DNA of 39,458 nucleotides from Muribaculaceae bacterium (GTDB lineage Bacteria; Bacteroidota; Bacteroidia; Bacteroidales; Muribaculaceae): assembly GCA_029060625.1 (NCBI GenBank), contig JAIDTO010000319.1, positions 1 to 39,458 of the forward strand, in the 5' to 3' direction. Numbering within the stretch: the stretch's first letter is position 1; the number at the start of each line of letters is the position of its first letter. The notes beneath the pieces were generated by a model. The model did not search any database. It was not told the origin of the DNA and worked only from the letters and a program-made list of their open reading frames with translations. The translations under genes were made by a program, and so were the position numbers. Positions 8,593 to 39,322 of this stretch are shown in pieces.

Positions 8593-8733
8593 CTTTTACG
8601 CCACTGTCTCCGACGCTATTCCAGCCACTTTCACCGACACCTATCCCGACAATGTTTCCGCCACTGCTCGGGACACCTCTGGGGACACTCCTTCCGACAC
8701 CTTTGGGGACACTTTTGGGGACACCTTTTTCAT
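8593..8733 (-). repeat. 12-bp periodic repeat GTGTCNNNNNNN reading as V-S-x-x tetrapeptides
   Basis: Minus strand ATG AAA AAG, then GTGTCCCCAAAA GTGTCCCCAAAG GTGTCGGAAGGA GTGTCCCCAGAG GTGTCCCGAGCA GTGGCGGAAACA TTGTCGGGATAG GTGTCGGTGAAA GTGGCTGGAATA GCGTCGGAGACA GTGGCGTAAAAG, in strict register. Confidence 0.75.
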
Positions 8734-9451: not shown

Positions 9452-9457
9452 TGGAAG

Positions 9458-9485
9458 ACGTTTTACGTTGGACGTTGGACGTTTT
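9458..9485. repeat. Heptamer array acgtttt-acgttgg-acgttgg-acgtttt
   Basis: Four 7-mers in register. Confidence 0.6.
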
Positions 9486-9660: not shown

Positions 9661-10374
9661 GAGTCGCAGGCTGGACTTGCTTTTGCTTGGGCGAAGCCAA
9701 AGCCTGCTTTCCATGTTCGTGGGGGTGGTGAATGGAGTGGGCGCGTTTGGGCCTCGGTCCTGCCGAATCACCACTTCCCATATATCGTTGAATGGCGCTT
9801 ATACCCCATGCGCCGACGGGTTGTTGCAGACTTGTAAACCTTATTCTGACTCAGGGAAAGCCACCGGTCACGCCTTGGTGAGCGGCGTGGGGCAATCCCA
9901 GGACAGCACATGCCGGGCTCGTTTGGGCCTCTGTTCACACATGAGGAACTTCCGCCCAGCGGTAGATGACCTTTCACCTGCGACAGACACGTCTGTCTAT
10001 TCCTTTGCATTGGGCAATCTTGTCTGTGGGGATGAAGCGGACGGGGTTCTTTCAACGATAAATTATTAACGATAAACGATCATTGTGGGGTGGCTACTTA
10101 GGAGGGTTCCCTTAGTCCAACGATTAACTATTAACGATAAACTATCAACTAATAGCCATTAACCAATGAATAAGGGCTCTTATTCGCCTGGAATCGCGTA
10201 TACTTGCTTGCCATAGACATGATTGCCGCGAGCGTCGGCAACCGGCTGGATTTCGTTTCCGAGTGCAAAGATAATGCATGATTTGGGGAGGAGAGCCTTA
10301 TCGCCGTAAAAAGGGAACCAACCTTAGGTAAATCAAACAAGAGGGAGAACTTGTATTCCGGTATCACATTTCCA

Positions 10375-10500
10375 GACACCTTTGGGGACACTCTTTCGGT
10401 CACATTCCGTGACACTTTTGGGGACACTCTTTCGGTCACATTCCGTGACACTTTTGGGGACACTCTTTCGGTCACATTCCGTGACACTTTTGGGGACACA
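10375..10500 (-). repeat. 36-bp tandem repeat, 3.5 copies (three 12-bp submodules; VSPK-VSRN-VTER on the minus strand)
   Basis: Units at 10375-10410, 10411-10446, 10447-10482, half unit 10483-10500; forms the N-terminus of ORF 10149..10499 (-). Confidence 0.9.
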
Positions 10501-23277: not shown

Positions 23278-23406
23278 CTGGTGTGCGAATGGTGGGGGAG
23301 ATAAATAAAGTGTCATCGTTGGTATTCAAATTATTTTGGAGTATTGGTTGTGGTAAAACAAGATTGAGGGGGTAGGTGTTATAAATTAAAAGTGATAAGT
23401 AGGAAT

Positions 23407-23434
23407 GCATAATTCATAATGCATAATGCATAAT
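23407..23434. repeat. Heptamer array gcataat-tcataat-gcataat-gcataat
   Basis: Four 7-mers in register upstream of rnr. Confidence 0.6.
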
Positions 23435-26070: not shown

Positions 26071-26192
26071 CCCCCAAGAAGGCGAGACGGCAATAGCCGG
26101 CTCGCTTTCTTTTTAACTATGAATGATAAATTATACATCACTTCAAAAAATTCTAAATTCCAAATTCCCGATTCTAAATTCTATATTAAAAA

Positions 26193-26510: not shown

Positions 26511-26540
26511 TCAGCTAACGATAATTATGCATTTTGCATT

Positions 26541-27131
26541 ATGAATTATGAATTAAACCTAAAGGATTACGACCGCATAATAATGGGCATTGACCCCGGC
26601 ACAAACGTGATGGGCTATGGAGTTTTGGGCATTATCGGCAAAAAAGCCGAGGTTATCGTAATGGGGGTAATCCAGCTAAACCGCTTCGAAACCCACTATC
26701 TCCGCCTTGGCCGTATCTATGAGCGGGTCAGCGGACTTGTGCAGCAGTATCTCCCCGACGAACTTGCCATCGAAGCCCCGTTTTTCGGCAAAAACGTACA
26801 GTCAATGCTCAAACTCGGGCGTGCCCAGGGTGTAGCTATGGCTGCGGCGCTTGCCCGCGACATACCTATCACCGAATACCCTCCTCTCAATGTGAAGAAA
26901 GCCGTCACAGGTAACGGCCAAGCCTCAAAAGAACAGGTAGCCAATATGCTGAAGCATCTCCTCTCCATTCCTGAAGAGAAGATGCCCGATGCTCTTGATG
27001 CCACCGACGCCTTAGCCGTGGCGCTATGCCATATGTATGAATCTCAAAAGCCTGCCATCGCCAAGGGTCCCAAATCCTGGAAAGACTTCCTCGCCAAAAA
27101 CCCCGACCGCATAGCCCCGAGACTCAAATGA
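26541..27131 (+). CDS. ruvC: Crossover junction endodeoxyribonuclease RuvC
   Basis: [62 protein letters not shown]. Confidence 0.95.
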
Positions 27132-28199: not shown

Positions 28200-28281
28200 A
28201 CTTCTATTTATTTTTTATTCTAATACTTCACTTTCTCCCAATTCCCCACCCAATTTATAGACAATCGTTGATCATTGATCA

Positions 28282-28728
28282 TTAATCGTTACCCCCCGCT
28301 TTCTCCACCGCAAGGATGATCGACTCATAGCCCACGACCCTGACTTCCTCCCCGGGAAAGATCTGCATGTCACGCTTTGCAGACCTCACCTGCCACACAT
28401 CCCCGTCTATCCGCATACGAAGGCAATCCGGAGCCTCGAAGACTGTCCCGGTTCGCCCGATCAGCGCATCCATTCCCGTAGCCCCATGCTCTGATCCTTT
28501 ATTCAAAGCCTTCACAAGACGATGCCGCCAGCGATAGGTAGAGACATACAGCAATCCTGTAAAAGCCACAAATGTCACGATTGTCTCAAGCCATTCTCCC
28601 CCAAGAAAAGCCGCCACCATAGCGGCAAGCGCCCCGCTCCCCACATACAGGCATGTAGTGGACATCGTCAGCAACTCCGCGATCAAGAATCCCACCCCTA
28701 AAATCAACCAAAAGCTCCAAAGTCCCAT
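28282..28728 (-). CDS. NfeD-family protein
   Basis: 148 aa; TM helices then OB-fold-like LIGRTGTVFEAPDCLRMRIDGDVWQVRS...GEEVRVVGYESIILAVE; upstream of the SPFH gene on the same strand. Confidence 0.88.
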   Translation of the reverse strand: MGLWSFWLILGVGFLIAELLTMSTTCLYVGSGALAAMVAAFLGGEWLETIVTFVAFTGLLYVSTYRWRHRLVKALNKGSEHGATGMDALIGRTGTVFEAPDCLRMRIDGDVWQVRSAKRDMQIFPGEEVRVVGYESIILAVEKAGGND

Positions 28729-29033
28729 AAATACTTCATTTTTGTGTTTGTCTCACAAAGATAAGAAAATTCCCTCACATATGCAAAAACTCTGTGCAAT
28801 TTTATCCCCATGTTCCCACGGCTCTTGCATCATAATGGACTCTCATATTCGCGACGCGAAGCCAAATTCGCAAAACGCAAAACGCACAACGGAAAACACA
28901 AATCCAATACACAAAGTCAATCAAAAAATCCCACATTTTTTATATTTCATTACCAATTTAGCGAAAATTTTATTAACTTTGCATATCGGGAGATGAATTG
29001 GGGCTTTTTGAACTAAACCTAAAAATTAAGACA

Positions 29034-31137: not shown

Positions 31138-31172
31138 AAAAAAGAAAGAGGCTCTCGCCTCTTTCTTTTTTT
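31137..31172. terminator. Bidirectional rho-independent terminator between convergent genes
   Basis: Perfect 16-bp stem AAAAAAAGAAAGAGGC-tctc-GCCTCTTTCTTTTTTT. Confidence 0.9.
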
Positions 31173-32073
31173 ACATAAGTTCTTTGTAATTGTCGAGCGT
31201 ACCGCGTAGTCTCTCGATGAGCATCACCTGAAGCTCCCTCGGCGATATCACCACCACATCCGGACCCATCGCCATCAGCTCGCTCACCAGCTCATAGTTA
31301 AGCTTCAACTCGTAGCGGAAGATCGAATAGAAGTCGTGCACCTCCTCTTTCTGTGTCCGGTGCAATGGAAGCGCTCGCAGATACTTTGCCCGCGTTGACG
31401 TGGTCTGTATCACTACCTCCCGCACCCCGGCACGCGAAGACGTCACTCCCACAATATTGCCGAAATAATCATCCATCCTTATTCCCGATGGCATCAGGAA
31501 CTCATTGTCTGTCACTTCCATCTCCGTGACGCGATCGAGGGCATACGTGCGGAGGCCTCCCCCGTTCTTCTTCCCGAACATATACCATCTCTGCTTATAG
31601 AGCTTCAGGAAATAAGGAGAGAACAGGATCCCCACCTCCGGCCGCGACCTTGCAAACCCGGCATAGGTAAACACAATCTTATGGTTCTGGCTCATTGCTG
31701 ACGAGACGATGGGAAGAAACTCCCTCGCTGAGGGAATTTCTTCTATCTCCACACGTCCCGAAGATGAGCCCAATTCTTGGATCGCACTCGTGGCGGCTGA
31801 ATTATTGAGTGTCCATTTGGCAAACTGCTTGACATAAGGTGATCCATCCGAATCAATCCAATAGTAGCCATCGGTAGTGCAGGATATCTCGATTCCGAAT
31901 GTCTCCTCTACGGCACGCCGCAACTTGTAGAACGTCCGGTCTGCCATCGGATTTCCACCGGAATATACGGTTTTCTTCTTCCAGAGATTATTCAGGTCTT
32001 TCTTTGATATCTTACCGTGTTTCAGGATCGTATCGACGATCCATATATAGATCGCTACTTTATCTTTTGCCAT
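31171..32073 (-). CDS. WYL-domain transcriptional regulator
   Basis: LKLYKQRWYMFGKKNGGGLRTYALDRVTEMEVTD; winged HTH-like N-terminus. Confidence 0.85.
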   Translation of the reverse strand: MAKDKVAIYIWIVDTILKHGKISKKDLNNLWKKKTVYSGGNPMADRTFYKLRRAVEETFGIEISCTTDGYYWIDSDGSPYVKQFAKWTLNNSAATSAIQELGSSSGRVEIEEIPSAREFLPIVSSAMSQNHKIVFTYAGFARSRPEVGILFSPYFLKLYKQRWYMFGKKNGGGLRTYALDRVTEMEVTDNEFLMPSGIRMDDYFGNIVGVTSSRAGVREVVIQTTSTRAKYLRALPLHRTQKEEVHDFYSIFRYELKLNYELVSELMAMGPDVVVISPRELQVMLIERLRGTLDNYKELM

Positions 32074-34830: not shown

Positions 34831-35040
34831 ATTCATCGTTAATGGCCGATCGCTAATCATTGATAGTTAATCATTTATCATTTATCATTTATCATTGATC
34901 ATTGATCGTTGCCCGTTGATCATTAATCATTTATCATTTATCATTTATCATTAATCATTGATCATTAATCATTGATCGTTGCCCGTTGATCATTTATCAT
35001 TTATCATTTATCATTTATCATTAATCATTGATCGTCGCCC
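34831..35040. repeat. 30-unit heptamer array, consensus RTTDATC
   Basis: Unbroken 7-bp register (attcatc gttaatg gccgatc gctaatc attgata gttaatc atttatc x3 attgatc x2 gttgccc gttgatc attaatc atttatc x3 ...); attgatcgttgcccgttgat recurs at 34901 and 34971 (70 bp). Confidence 0.9.
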
Positions 35041-35764
35041 TTTGGTACCAAAACTGTGGAGTGAGCATCAAGTCAGCAAACTCCGCCAGACCCATCCCCT
35101 CCGGCACATTCCTTTCCCCCTCCGGAAGCAACGCGTCACACTCCTTGGCTATCTCCTCCAGCGGAAGATATGAAAACGAATCCGGATACATCTCTAGCTG
35201 CTGGGCAATGGTCATGGCTGCCTTTTCATCTCCAAACAATGCTCCTCGAAGAAGCATGTCCTCCCCTCGCTTCGAGTCGTATGGAAGCCCCCGACCCATC
35301 AGCATTGCTGTCCCTGCGAGTGATGATGCCTTTGCCATCGTCTTCCTGTCCGGCAATGCATCCCCGAGCACTTCATCCTTATCATTAAGAATCAGTTCCA
35401 TGTAATTAAGGGCAGCCGCCGGCAATCCTTGATCAGCGGCACGTTCATACCATCGGAAAGCCCCTTTGACATCCTTTTCTGCAAACTCTCCATGCTGCAT
35501 AAGCCAACCTATATTGTTCGCCGCCTTGGCATCTCCTTCCCATGCGGCAGACATCATCATGTCATAGCCTCGCTGACGATCGTCGGGCAAAGAATCGCGC
35601 ATAAAAAGCATATATCCCTCCATCGCCGACTCCGCCACTTCCTCCGGTGAAGATGCCCATGATCTTCCGATGCAGCCAAGGACTATTCCTAATATTAGCA
35701 ATCTTATCATTTTCATACTGCAAATATAATGAATTTTATCCTTATGACCAACTGATTTTCTCAA
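35021..35764 (-). CDS. Sel1/TPR-repeat secreted protein
   Basis: RQRGYDMMMSAAWEGDAKAANNIGWLMQHGEFAEKDVKGAFRWYERAADQGLPAAALNYM. Confidence 0.85.
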   Translation of the reverse strand: MRKSVGHKDKIHYICSMKMIRLLILGIVLGCIGRSWASSPEEVAESAMEGYMLFMRDSLPDDRQRGYDMMMSAAWEGDAKAANNIGWLMQHGEFAEKDVKGAFRWYERAADQGLPAAALNYMELILNDKDEVLGDALPDRKTMAKASSLAGTAMLMGRGLPYDSKRGEDMLLRGALFGDEKAAMTIAQQLEMYPDSFSYLPLEEIAKECDALLPEGERNVPEGMGLAEFADLMLTPQFWYQRATIND

Positions 35765-35779
35765 CCATCAAGCTTTAAA

Positions 35780-38700
35780 TCAAAAAATCCACCATCTTTT
35801 TTTCTTCTTTTTATCCTTTTTCTTATCTCCTGACCCTTTAACGGAAGCTCTACGGTCGTTGCTATTGACTCCGGATCCTTCGCCGACGGCATTCGGTTGA
35901 AGCACCCCTTCCTTTATCAGCCGGAGCGAATCCTCTGCGCTTAATCCCGCTTCCGGAAGCGCATCAAAACCCGCGGGCATCGCTATCTGCAACTTTGCAA
36001 ACTGAGAATTTCTCACTCCTCTCTTGAATACGTTTTCTATCTGGTCTACAAGGTTTATTCGTGCATTATTCACAATGTCGGTGCTCTCGACTACAGTATT
36101 TTCATTGAATTTTGCACCCCCGAAACGCACCTTGTATTTCTTGGGATTTCCCTTTACCGTAATGCCGAATTTGAAAGGTATCGGCGATTTCAACACCGAC
36201 AGATGATAGTCAAAATCCATGTCAAGGTTATTGTAGCCGTAGATCCCCAGACGATAGCGGTCTATGTCGAATGCGAAGGGGTAGACGCGCATCAGCCCGT
36301 CGGCTACGGTCATCTCCACATTCAGGCTATGTATCGTATTGTCTGCTTTGTTTTTGAATCCAAGCCATTTGCCCAATGTCCGGTACTTTTCCGGGTCTAT
36401 GAAGGCAAGATTGTCGCCCGTGATCTTTATGGCTGCATTTAGGGAAGGAAGGGAGATGTTCATTCCGGAATCTATGCGGCAGGTTGCAGCGATATCTGCT
36501 CCGATATAGCCGGAAAAGTCATGCATCAAGGGTGTGATGGAATCTATGGCAGGCACGAGCTTCACAAACTTTGCGATATTGAAATCCTTGACGTCCAATC
36601 CGAATCCGAAACGCATGTCAGTTGCCTTGGGAGCTGAATAAAGGGCTGAAAGCGACAGGTTGCCGACATCGGAATTTGTTTTCATGTCATGTATGCTTAC
36701 GCCACCGTCGTAAATGAGGAAATCCCCACCCATATTGAGCAAATCGACATCGCTATATAGCAGGTGTCGTGCATCGAGCCGCAGATTGGCATCTATATTG
36801 ACAGGGATAAGGACGGGAGATGACCGTCCCGGACCTTTCTTCGAAAGTGCATTCAGCTTTGACTGCAACGTGGCATCATCGTCGGCGGTCAATTTCTTAA
36901 TCTTCCCATGTTTCCTGTCTGACACATAGGAAGCTCCCGTGAATACTGAGGCTGCAAGCTCATTGATGTCTATAGTGTCACTCAGCAATGACAAATTCCC
37001 CTTGAGGTCATTCTTGACTCCGGCTGTGAGAGCGCGACGCACATTTGATATTAGCCCCGACATTGTGATGTCCGACCGCCCTGCCTCAACTGAAATATTG
37101 GATATATTGACAGAGTCATTGTCAAATGTCAGAGCCACTCTCGATATTCTGGTATGCAGTGGGAAAATGGGTGTGAGGAGGCTGGCATTGCTTGTGTTGA
37201 CAGAGCCCCCGATTTTCCACTCGTTGAGGAAACGCCTGAATTGAGGGGTGAGATTCCAAACAAGCACTTCCTCATCCTGAGCACCGACGTCGCCATATAC
37301 TCTTCGGGTGCGCTTCCGGTGTTTCCGCGTGTAGTAGACGTATTTATATACATCTTTCGGAGCTATGTAAGAATATTCCCTATGGGCTGCTCTCTTCTTC
37401 TTTACCGCTTGCTTGGTTTTTGCTGCAGCCGACGTTTTATATAAGGAGGCGTTCACCTTTGTGTCTCGCAAGATCACCCTGTCGGAAAGGCTTCCTGCAG
37501 AGACATTTCCGATATTGAGGCTGGCGATGATTTCAGGAATGTTTCCGCTCCTTTTTGTCCCCTTTAAGCTGACCGTGCCTCCGATATTGCGTATCTTTGC
37601 CCCTGCACTGTCTGTGATGGAGATGATATTGAACCGCCCCACTTTCAGGTCGCCGGATATAGGCACCATGCGGGCGCTGTCTCCCCTGTTTCGCCCCGAA
37701 GTGTCCATTCCCGCATCCAGGCTTATGCTTCCTAAAGCCAAATCCACTCCGCTTACGAGGATCGTGGCAGTGTCCACCGCTACCTTTGTCTTAAGCAACG
37801 GCATGTTATCGACAATCCGCTTTGAGTCAAGGTCAATCCTGGCATTCCCTATCTCCACCATCTTGCTCGTGTCGGCTGATAAGAAATAAACGTCTTTTGC
37901 AGTCACGGAGCCATCGGCAACGAGCCTGTGAAGGTGCTCCGGCTTGAACATCGACACGCTCCCTTTGGCATTCAGGTCAGCCGTGACCACTCCGGAAAGA
38001 TATCCGGCTATCTTTTCCAGCACTATAGGAGGAAGATCTCTGAAATCAACTTTCCCTTCAATATTCGCGTCAAATGAGGGGTCGGATATGGGCGTGGCTA
38101 CGAAAGCTGACGCTTTCAGCTGTGTTCCCGGTCCGGCTACCGTAAGTTGCTGCAAATCTACAGTCGTTTTGTCCGGAAGGTTAATCTCAGTATTGATGGC
38201 TGCCTCTAAAGTTATATCTTTCAGATGAGCTTTGCCATAATTTAATGCTGATGTGGGGATGGCGATATTGATCTTTGCTGCCGGCAGTGTGTCCATGGCA
38301 AGATTCATCGGTTGCAGAAGTTCAAGCCGTCCCCCTATGGTGGCATCCGTCGAGAAATATGGATCATAAAGCCCGTGTTCCCGGCGGATTGAATCAGGAA
38401 GTATGGTAAGCAGATCTGAAATGGCCACCGGTTTCAGTTCCACACTCCCTTTCCTTATGATCGGGCTTTCTGTCAAGTCTATTTCCCCTGCTACGACTGC
38501 ACGTATGAAGGCACCCCGGAGCTCCATCTCGTCCATTGCCACTACACCCGGCTCCGATGGATTCCAATATACCTTGCCGTTGACTCCGAAACTTATCTTG
38601 TCAAGATTTGTAATCAAAGTCGCTTTTGGAGAAGTTACGTTCCCGTTGATTTTCAGACGGTACGTTGGTTGCTCGTTCCCGTCTAATGCCGCATCTGTCA

Positions 38701-39322
38701 GCAATAGCACAGAAGCTGAAGTGGCATCCGCAGCATTATAAAACCTTATCTCCTTCGGATGTTCAAGGGCAAAACGGTTGATGCGGAATCCCGGCATCTT
38801 TTTCTTGGGGGTGTCAGCCGTGTCGGCATGAAGAGCGATAATGTCATAATTGGCTTTGCCGTTTTGTGCTATGACAAGGTTCACGCCCAGCCCTCGCAAC
38901 ACTACATCATGAAGCGACAGTTCATTGCCCACGATCAGCCGTTTTATATCCACCGATCCTTCCAAATAGTCGAGCGTGAGGAGGGAATCGGCATAATTGG
39001 GCAATAGTCCGCGCTTATCGGCTGGCAACGAGTCAAAAGCATGCGATATGACCGACAGGTTCTCTATCTCCACACCGAGTATCGGGAAGTGAGGATGGAA
39101 ACCGAGTTTGATTTTGCCTAATTTCACTTGCCCGTCTACATAATCATTCGCTATCTCCTCAATCATTGGGGCAAGACGGTCGGATTCTATGAACTTTACG
39201 GCACAAAACAGCAAGATGCACCCGATAGCCACGACAGAAAACACTGTCCAGCCGCACACTTTGATTATCTTTGCAAAAAGATTTCCTTTCTTGCTTTCGT
39301 TCTTGCCGTCGCTCTCGTCCAT
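35780..39322 (-). CDS. AsmA-family (DUF748/AsmA-like) large membrane-anchored protein
   Basis: 1180 aa; N-terminal TM, VDGQVKLGKIKLGFHPHFPILGVEIENLSV; repeated beta-rich segments; C-terminal AsmA_2-like FGITVKGNPKKYKVRFGGAKF and Lys-rich tail. Confidence 0.85.
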   Translation of the reverse strand: MDESDGKNESKKGNLFAKIIKVCGWTVFSVVAIGCILLFCAVKFIESDRLAPMIEEIANDYVDGQVKLGKIKLGFHPHFPILGVEIENLSVISHAFDSLPADKRGLLPNYADSLLTLDYLEGSVDIKRLIVGNELSLHDVVLRGLGVNLVIAQNGKANYDIIALHADTADTPKKKMPGFRINRFALEHPKEIRFYNAADATSASVLLLTDAALDGNEQPTYRLKINGNVTSPKATLITNLDKISFGVNGKVYWNPSEPGVVAMDEMELRGAFIRAVVAGEIDLTESPIIRKGSVELKPVAISDLLTILPDSIRREHGLYDPYFSTDATIGGRLELLQPMNLAMDTLPAAKINIAIPTSALNYGKAHLKDITLEAAINTEINLPDKTTVDLQQLTVAGPGTQLKASAFVATPISDPSFDANIEGKVDFRDLPPIVLEKIAGYLSGVVTADLNAKGSVSMFKPEHLHRLVADGSVTAKDVYFLSADTSKMVEIGNARIDLDSKRIVDNMPLLKTKVAVDTATILVSGVDLALGSISLDAGMDTSGRNRGDSARMVPISGDLKVGRFNIISITDSAGAKIRNIGGTVSLKGTKRSGNIPEIIASLNIGNVSAGSLSDRVILRDTKVNASLYKTSAAAKTKQAVKKKRAAHREYSYIAPKDVYKYVYYTRKHRKRTRRVYGDVGAQDEEVLVWNLTPQFRRFLNEWKIGGSVNTSNASLLTPIFPLHTRISRVALTFDNDSVNISNISVEAGRSDITMSGLISNVRRALTAGVKNDLKGNLSLLSDTIDINELAASVFTGASYVSDRKHGKIKKLTADDDATLQSKLNALSKKGPGRSSPVLIPVNIDANLRLDARHLLYSDVDLLNMGGDFLIYDGGVSIHDMKTNSDVGNLSLSALYSAPKATDMRFGFGLDVKDFNIAKFVKLVPAIDSITPLMHDFSGYIGADIAATCRIDSGMNISLPSLNAAIKITGDNLAFIDPEKYRTLGKWLGFKNKADNTIHSLNVEMTVADGLMRVYPFAFDIDRYRLGIYGYNNLDMDFDYHLSVLKSPIPFKFGITVKGNPKKYKVRFGGAKFNENTVVESTDIVNNARINLVDQIENVFKRGVRNSQFAKLQIAMPAGFDALPEAGLSAEDSLRLIKEGVLQPNAVGEGSGVNSNDRRASVKGSGDKKKDKKKKKRWWIF

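Follow-up and report, generated by a model that had tools for sequence, protein, structure and literature searches.

The locus lies in the window, by which we mean the whole 39,458-nucleotide stretch of DNA that was analyzed, from an uncultured gut member of the Muribaculaceae. Four genes, all encoded on the minus strand, follow one another here and code for an 1180-amino-acid protein, a Sel1-like repeat protein, a 904-amino-acid fn3-domain protein and a WYL-domain regulator (Table 1). A heptamer array separates the Sel1-like gene from the fn3 gene. Read in the sense of the genes, it begins at the last Sel1-like codons, the stop codon (35021-35023) falling within the array, and 36 bp separate its other end from the fn3 gene. 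Relatives sharing this gene order are mostly metagenome genomes of Muribaculaceae or Porphyromonadaceae.

Table 1. The heptamer array, its parts and the surrounding genes (window coordinates).
Feature	Position	Strand	Remarks
WYL-domain regulator gene	31171..32073	-	6 bp after fn3 gene
fn3-domain protein gene, 904 aa	32080..34794	-	downstream of array; 36 bp between start codon and array edge
Degenerate edge units	34831..34865		ATTCATC GTTAATG GCCGATC GCTAATC ATTGATA; in register, weak
Array proper, heptamers	about 34854-35035		unit ATCATTN on + strand; AATGATN in sense of both flanking genes
Super-repeat 1	34866..34921		GTTAATC (ATTTATC)3 (ATTGATC)2 GTTGCCC GTTGATC
Super-repeat 2	34922..34991		70 bp; final units GTTGCCC GTTGATC
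Super-repeat 3, truncated	34992..35040		final unit GTCGCCC, 56 bp past preceding GTTGCCC
Sel1-like repeat protein gene	35021..35764	-	Sel1 PF08238, E 1.5e-6, slightly below curated cut-off
Gene for 1180-aa protein	35780..39322	-	no Pfam match; first gene of conserved gene order

Splitting positions 34831-35040 into 7-mers gives 30 slots without a single indel, and 22 of the 30 units match RTTDATC exactly. The other eight comprise three GTTGCCC or GTCGCCC units and the five degenerate units at 34831-34865; since these first five are weak, we took the array proper as about 34854-35035. For this part Tandem Repeats Finder (TRF) reports period 7, 85% matches, 0% indels and a score of 181. The sequence is A+T-rich and contains no G-runs. 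The unbroken 7-bp register described in the initial annotation is thus confirmed, with the reservation that the five edge units are weak. The word code of the array is aTTTGG#g / ATTTAGAG#g / TTTTAG#, with # for GTTGCCC or GTCGCCC. These marks define the super-repeat ends and are spaced by 10 and 8 units, i.e., 70 and 56 bp. The higher-order periods of this size that had been claimed are borne out by the lag identity within the array, which is 0.90 at 70 and 0.87 at 56, compared to 0.69-0.84 at other multiples of 7.

The source genome is a fragmented draft metagenome assembly (3.09 Mb, 333 contigs, 79% complete), of which 1.0 Mb, about one third, was scanned for tandem repeats (the window and contigs 1-120, with no more than 20 kb taken from any contig). 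In this sample TRF found 82 period-7 arrays with a score of at least 40, whereas first-order Markov resampling of the same amount of sequence gave 0; no other short period approaches period 7, and the array at 34854-35035 has the top score among all sampled period-7 arrays. By proportion, the whole assembly should contain about 250 of them. With open reading frames called mechanically, only 18 of 98 merged arrays lie mostly within a reading frame, although about 85% of the DNA is reading frame by the same calling. Spacers between tandem, convergent and divergent genes carry arrays roughly in proportion to the frequency of such gene pairs, and no strand preference relative to the flanking genes was found for the word families ATTATGM (14 same, 13 opposite) and ACYCTTN (11 and 8). 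Tandem heptamers in cyanobacterial genomes are known as STRRs, and the initial annotation mentioned them beside the array. The array is indeed STRR-like and belongs to a genome-wide class of period-7 arrays; the scan, covering about a third of the genome, speaks against both a unique locus and a random origin. Shorter heptamer arrays with other words are present in the same window at 9457-9483, 10054-10163, 23404-23434, 26148-26187, 26524-26555, 28264-28287 and 28869-28902. At 10364-10499 lies a repeat of 36 bp with 96% matches, whose 12-bp subunits read GACACTTTTGGG; a degenerate relative is situated 1.7 kb off at 8656-8728. Read off the tables, same-genus genomes with many heptamer arrays seem to exceed the rest of the genus in size and fragmentation.

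Words were counted in 1.24 Mb that had been chosen partly for ATTATGM, and the families were defined on the same data, giving 49 loci for ATTATGM, 27 for ACYCTTN, 22 for ACGTMMA, 21 for AAGACTN and three for ATCATTN; AACTGAN arrays are also present in the source genome. In ATTATGM, position 7 occurs as both A and C at 46 of the 49 loci, and at positions 1, 2, 3, 5 and 6 each alternative base is seen at three loci at most. Exact ATTATGM runs cluster at 32-33 bp and have a preferred start and end phase. Numbers of runs with exactly three, exactly four and at least five units, derived from the counts of 3-, 4- and 5-unit windows, are 12/28/4 (G014), 36/34/3 (G107), 15/24/7 (G086), 30/25/4 (G123) and, for a genome of another family, 26/24/0 (G306), but 10/1/3 in G022 and 9/7/6 in G115. 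Since runs mostly halt at four units in several of these genomes, ATTATGM is there a short element of defined length and not an open-ended array. Four consecutive ATTATGM units were detected in 24 of 393 sampled Bacteroidales genomes, belonging to 20 genera, compared to none for the reversed pattern; three ATCATTN units were detected in 32 of the 393, likewise scattered over genera. Within the source genus, four ACYCTTN units occur in 14 and four ATTATGN units in 24 of 111 genomes.

Some further properties of ATTATGM were observed. The dispersed element of approximately 33 bp can be written AATTATGM ATTATGM ATTATGM ATTATGM ATTA (L242:1435-1540, L251:16240-16390 and others), and it is also present, with preferred ends, in G086, G014, G107 and G306. 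Its free base tends to alternate between A and C (78 AC and CA steps, 47 expected; 18 AA and CC steps, 49 expected). At times the elements form inverted pairs about 30-120 bp apart, as at G000:C128:1440-/1506+ and G000:C232:16245-/16358+ and in G086:C15, G014:C47, G107:C41 and G306:C2 and C4.

The spacer between the Sel1-like and fn3 genes was compared with that of ten related Muribaculaceae, with orthology taken from best match and gene order. Including the source, eight of the 11 species show heptamer periodicity here (lag-7 identity 0.63-0.82); G117, G109 and G108 have no array (0.33-0.41). The genes lie 80 bp apart in G109 and 27 bp apart in G117, in the same order, and in G108 the spacer is about 530 bp long and apparently contains another gene. 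The array is thus dispensable for the gene order. The words at the orthologous spacer differ: AATGATN in the source, AACGATM in G107, TTAATGA in G005, AAAGATT in G110, AGATWAA plus AAGACTN in G012, a GATTAAA start followed by ATTATGC in G123, AATGCAT in G125 and ATTATGM in G126. In at least five species AANGATN words carry on the codons that end the Sel1-like protein (I-N/K-D-stop). In our reading a single array was born locally; its word probably drifted and was homogenized, and in G126 this word appears to have been replaced outright. Two further spacers were compared. At L067:4957-5085, G108 (91% nucleotide identity in the gene) has near-identical outer flanks, and its ACYCTTN units differ in number and order. 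This spacer has other words in G125, G109 and G126 and none in G117, G123 and G005. At L120:17761-17823 the array of G108 is shorter and contains 6-bp units, i.e., a broken register, and G107, G109 and G117 have none. Unit content and number both differ between species; the best pair departs by 30 bp in total length, which is no multiple of 7, one edge having changed as well. The spacer between the fn3 and WYL genes is 6 bp long in the source. In two relatives heptamers (an ATTATGM element or an AAGACTN array) occupy it along with a hairpin repeat, GTAGGGACGCACGGCTCGTGCGTCCG, at L155:6716-6830 and L148:5920-6030.

The resemblance of the array words to the Sel1-like 3' end (AANGATN) suggests local birth by slippage, followed by turnover through gain and loss of whole units. 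The array is, in our view, probably an intergenic heptanucleotide minisatellite that arose at the Sel1-like gene end, grew by slippage or unequal recombination, underwent turnover of its words and has little effect on its neighbors. Birth would have taken place where the last codons, ...ATT AAN GAT TAA, already form an imperfect 7-bp repeat, a step we infer from the resemblance seen in several species. Growth by replication slippage or unequal recombination may have added one 7-bp unit at a time as well as whole blocks of 8-10 units, and such blocks would leave the 56- and 70-bp periods that are observed. The same exchange could spread variant words along the array, and substitutions would then survive, the register would be kept and the dominant word would shift between species. 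The effect on neighboring genes is probably small, consisting of a longer spacer in what appears to be a Sel1-fn3-WYL operon and of a stop codon for the upstream gene. Taken together, these observations point to rapidly evolving spacer DNA of a familiar type and not to a switch for neighboring genes.

Constrained slippage or selection on spacing had initially been suggested for the register. Re-running TRF with a lower indel penalty produced indels in 10 of 44 arrays, mostly paired gaps replacing mismatches, and phase shifts were therefore counted directly. In five word families, interruptions between neighboring runs kept the phase 36 times and shifted it four times, a ratio close to what an ordinary excess of substitutions over indels would produce; a tenfold excess would suffice without selection. 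Substitutions fall at two positions per array in 172 of 199 cases (128 expected), a figure inflated by the copying of variants within arrays, so that the count by loci given above is fairer. Whole-heptamer slippage fits the comparative data, and to this extent the suggestion is supported. Selection on spacing is not supported: besides the phase counts, the 6-bp units in the G108 array at L120 speak against it, and so do relatives of identical gene order in which the corresponding spacer lacks the array, its word or the two together.

Other explanations were weighed against a locally grown minisatellite. That the heptamers are putative binding sites of a DNA- or RNA-binding protein, for example of the cold-shock type, which would control the fn3 and WYL genes, we regard as unlikely. 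The short distance to the fn3 start (36 bp) is in keeping with it, variation limited to fixed word positions would fit the tolerated bases of a binding site, and a heptamer-binding protein of this type has been proposed for the TAACTGA repeats (PMC4679880). However, the word is not conserved, G109 and G117 lack the array despite the same gene order, arrays of the class have no strand preference and also lie between convergent genes, and an Rfam search with the array returned no match. A phase-variation switch, in which copy number shifts the reading frame or promoter spacing of the neighbors, could draw on a unit length that is not a multiple of 3 and on the overlap with the Sel1-like 3' end. 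Nearly every unit in gene sense (AATGATN) contains TGA, though, which ends any entering frame after a few units and limits possible changes to the final Sel1-like residues. Such a switch is very improbable. An assembly artefact is hardly credible: the draft is fragmented and arrays are somewhat enriched near contig ends (nine within 100 bp, 3.6 expected), but the array sits in a 39-kb contig with unique sequence to its left and right, and independent genomes carry heptamers at the same spacer.

Slippage alone does not explain the small vocabulary of words recurring at many loci, the variation at fixed word positions across independent loci (46 of 49 for ATTATGM) or the halt of most ATTATGM runs at four units, seen in several genomes. 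These features call for a further factor, either dissemination of ready-made arrays or a preference for certain words. Ready-made strings might be inserted, or synthesized by a hypothetical RT-like enzyme or recombinase, and the locus might have received one. Words are shared over loci and throughout the order (ATTATGM, 24 of 393 genomes; none reversed), ATTATGM elements of about 33 bp have fixed ends, and in G306 runs stop abruptly at four units. Against such an origin, the ATCATTN and ACYCTTN arrays, that at 34854-35035 included, vary widely in length, the word found here agrees with the local gene end, and inspection by eye revealed no conserved flank. For this locus we consider such an origin quite unlikely. 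As one form of it, telomerase-like templated synthesis by a hypothetical enzyme would fit the fixed ends and free base of ATTATGM; we give it little weight. A broader proposal is speculative and rather unlikely: a dedicated process would propagate a Bacteroidales-wide heptamer vocabulary, with ATTATGM as its dispersed element of about 33 bp (four heptamers, fixed ends, one free base per unit) and longer arrays as locally grown products whose words are replaced at orthologous spacers.

In prokaryotes heptanucleotides are the commonest repeat class between 5 and 11 nt, and polymerase slippage was proposed as their origin (Mrazek et al., 2007, as cited in PMC4679880); our literature search found no later test of this proposal for the seven-base preference. 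A genus with array-rich and array-free species, in which the same spacers are differently worded, is a natural test series, and it could separate a polymerase property, the spread of an element and selection as causes of this preference.

The array belongs to a known kind of repeat, the heptanucleotide simple repeats, and the statement in the initial annotation that heptamer repeats are known holds for Bacteroidetes too (PMC4679880; PMC4060949). In a 2014 survey the 7n3 class stands at 0.75 in Bacteroidetes and the other simple-repeat rows, 4n4 to 11n2, at zero (PMC4060949). A search of the literature by sequence string and for heptamers of Prevotella, Muribaculaceae and Bacteroides retrieved no description of the present words. 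With the heptanucleotide long simple sequence repeats (Mrazek et al., 2007; PMC4060949) the array shares head-to-tail 7-nt units beyond chance, the intergenic position and a genome-wide period-7 excess that lies mainly in spacers. The survey, however, describes tandem repeats of one oligomer, whereas the present units vary at fixed positions and one and the same spacer carries different words in different species. Heptamer spacers have been described in Gramella forsetii and A. sublithincola, and the corresponding spacers of their relatives are shorter and free of repeats (MacGregor, 2015; PMC4679880), a precedent that supports the explanation by spacer turnover. The TAACTGA repeats of Beggiatoaceae, cyanobacteria and a few Bacteroidetes (PMC4679880) are likewise intergenic and sometimes long, are absent from the shorter spacers of close relatives, and contigs break in them. 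Their unit differs from the ATCATTN of the array, and they mostly stand just before start codons in one orientation, whereas the larger word families here have no orientation preference. The GGGAATC and GGGGAYT heptamers of Xanthomonas and Nostoc (PMC4692102, which also mentions Calothrix heptanucleotides) are similarly heterogeneous, flanked by the same genes and variable in length and sequence between relatives, but they are G-rich and quadruplex-forming, while the present array is A+T-rich and lacks the run of three or four G in each unit. Newer in comparison with these systems are the replacement of units at orthologous spacers and the dispersed elements of four heptamers, approximately 33 bp long, with fixed ends.
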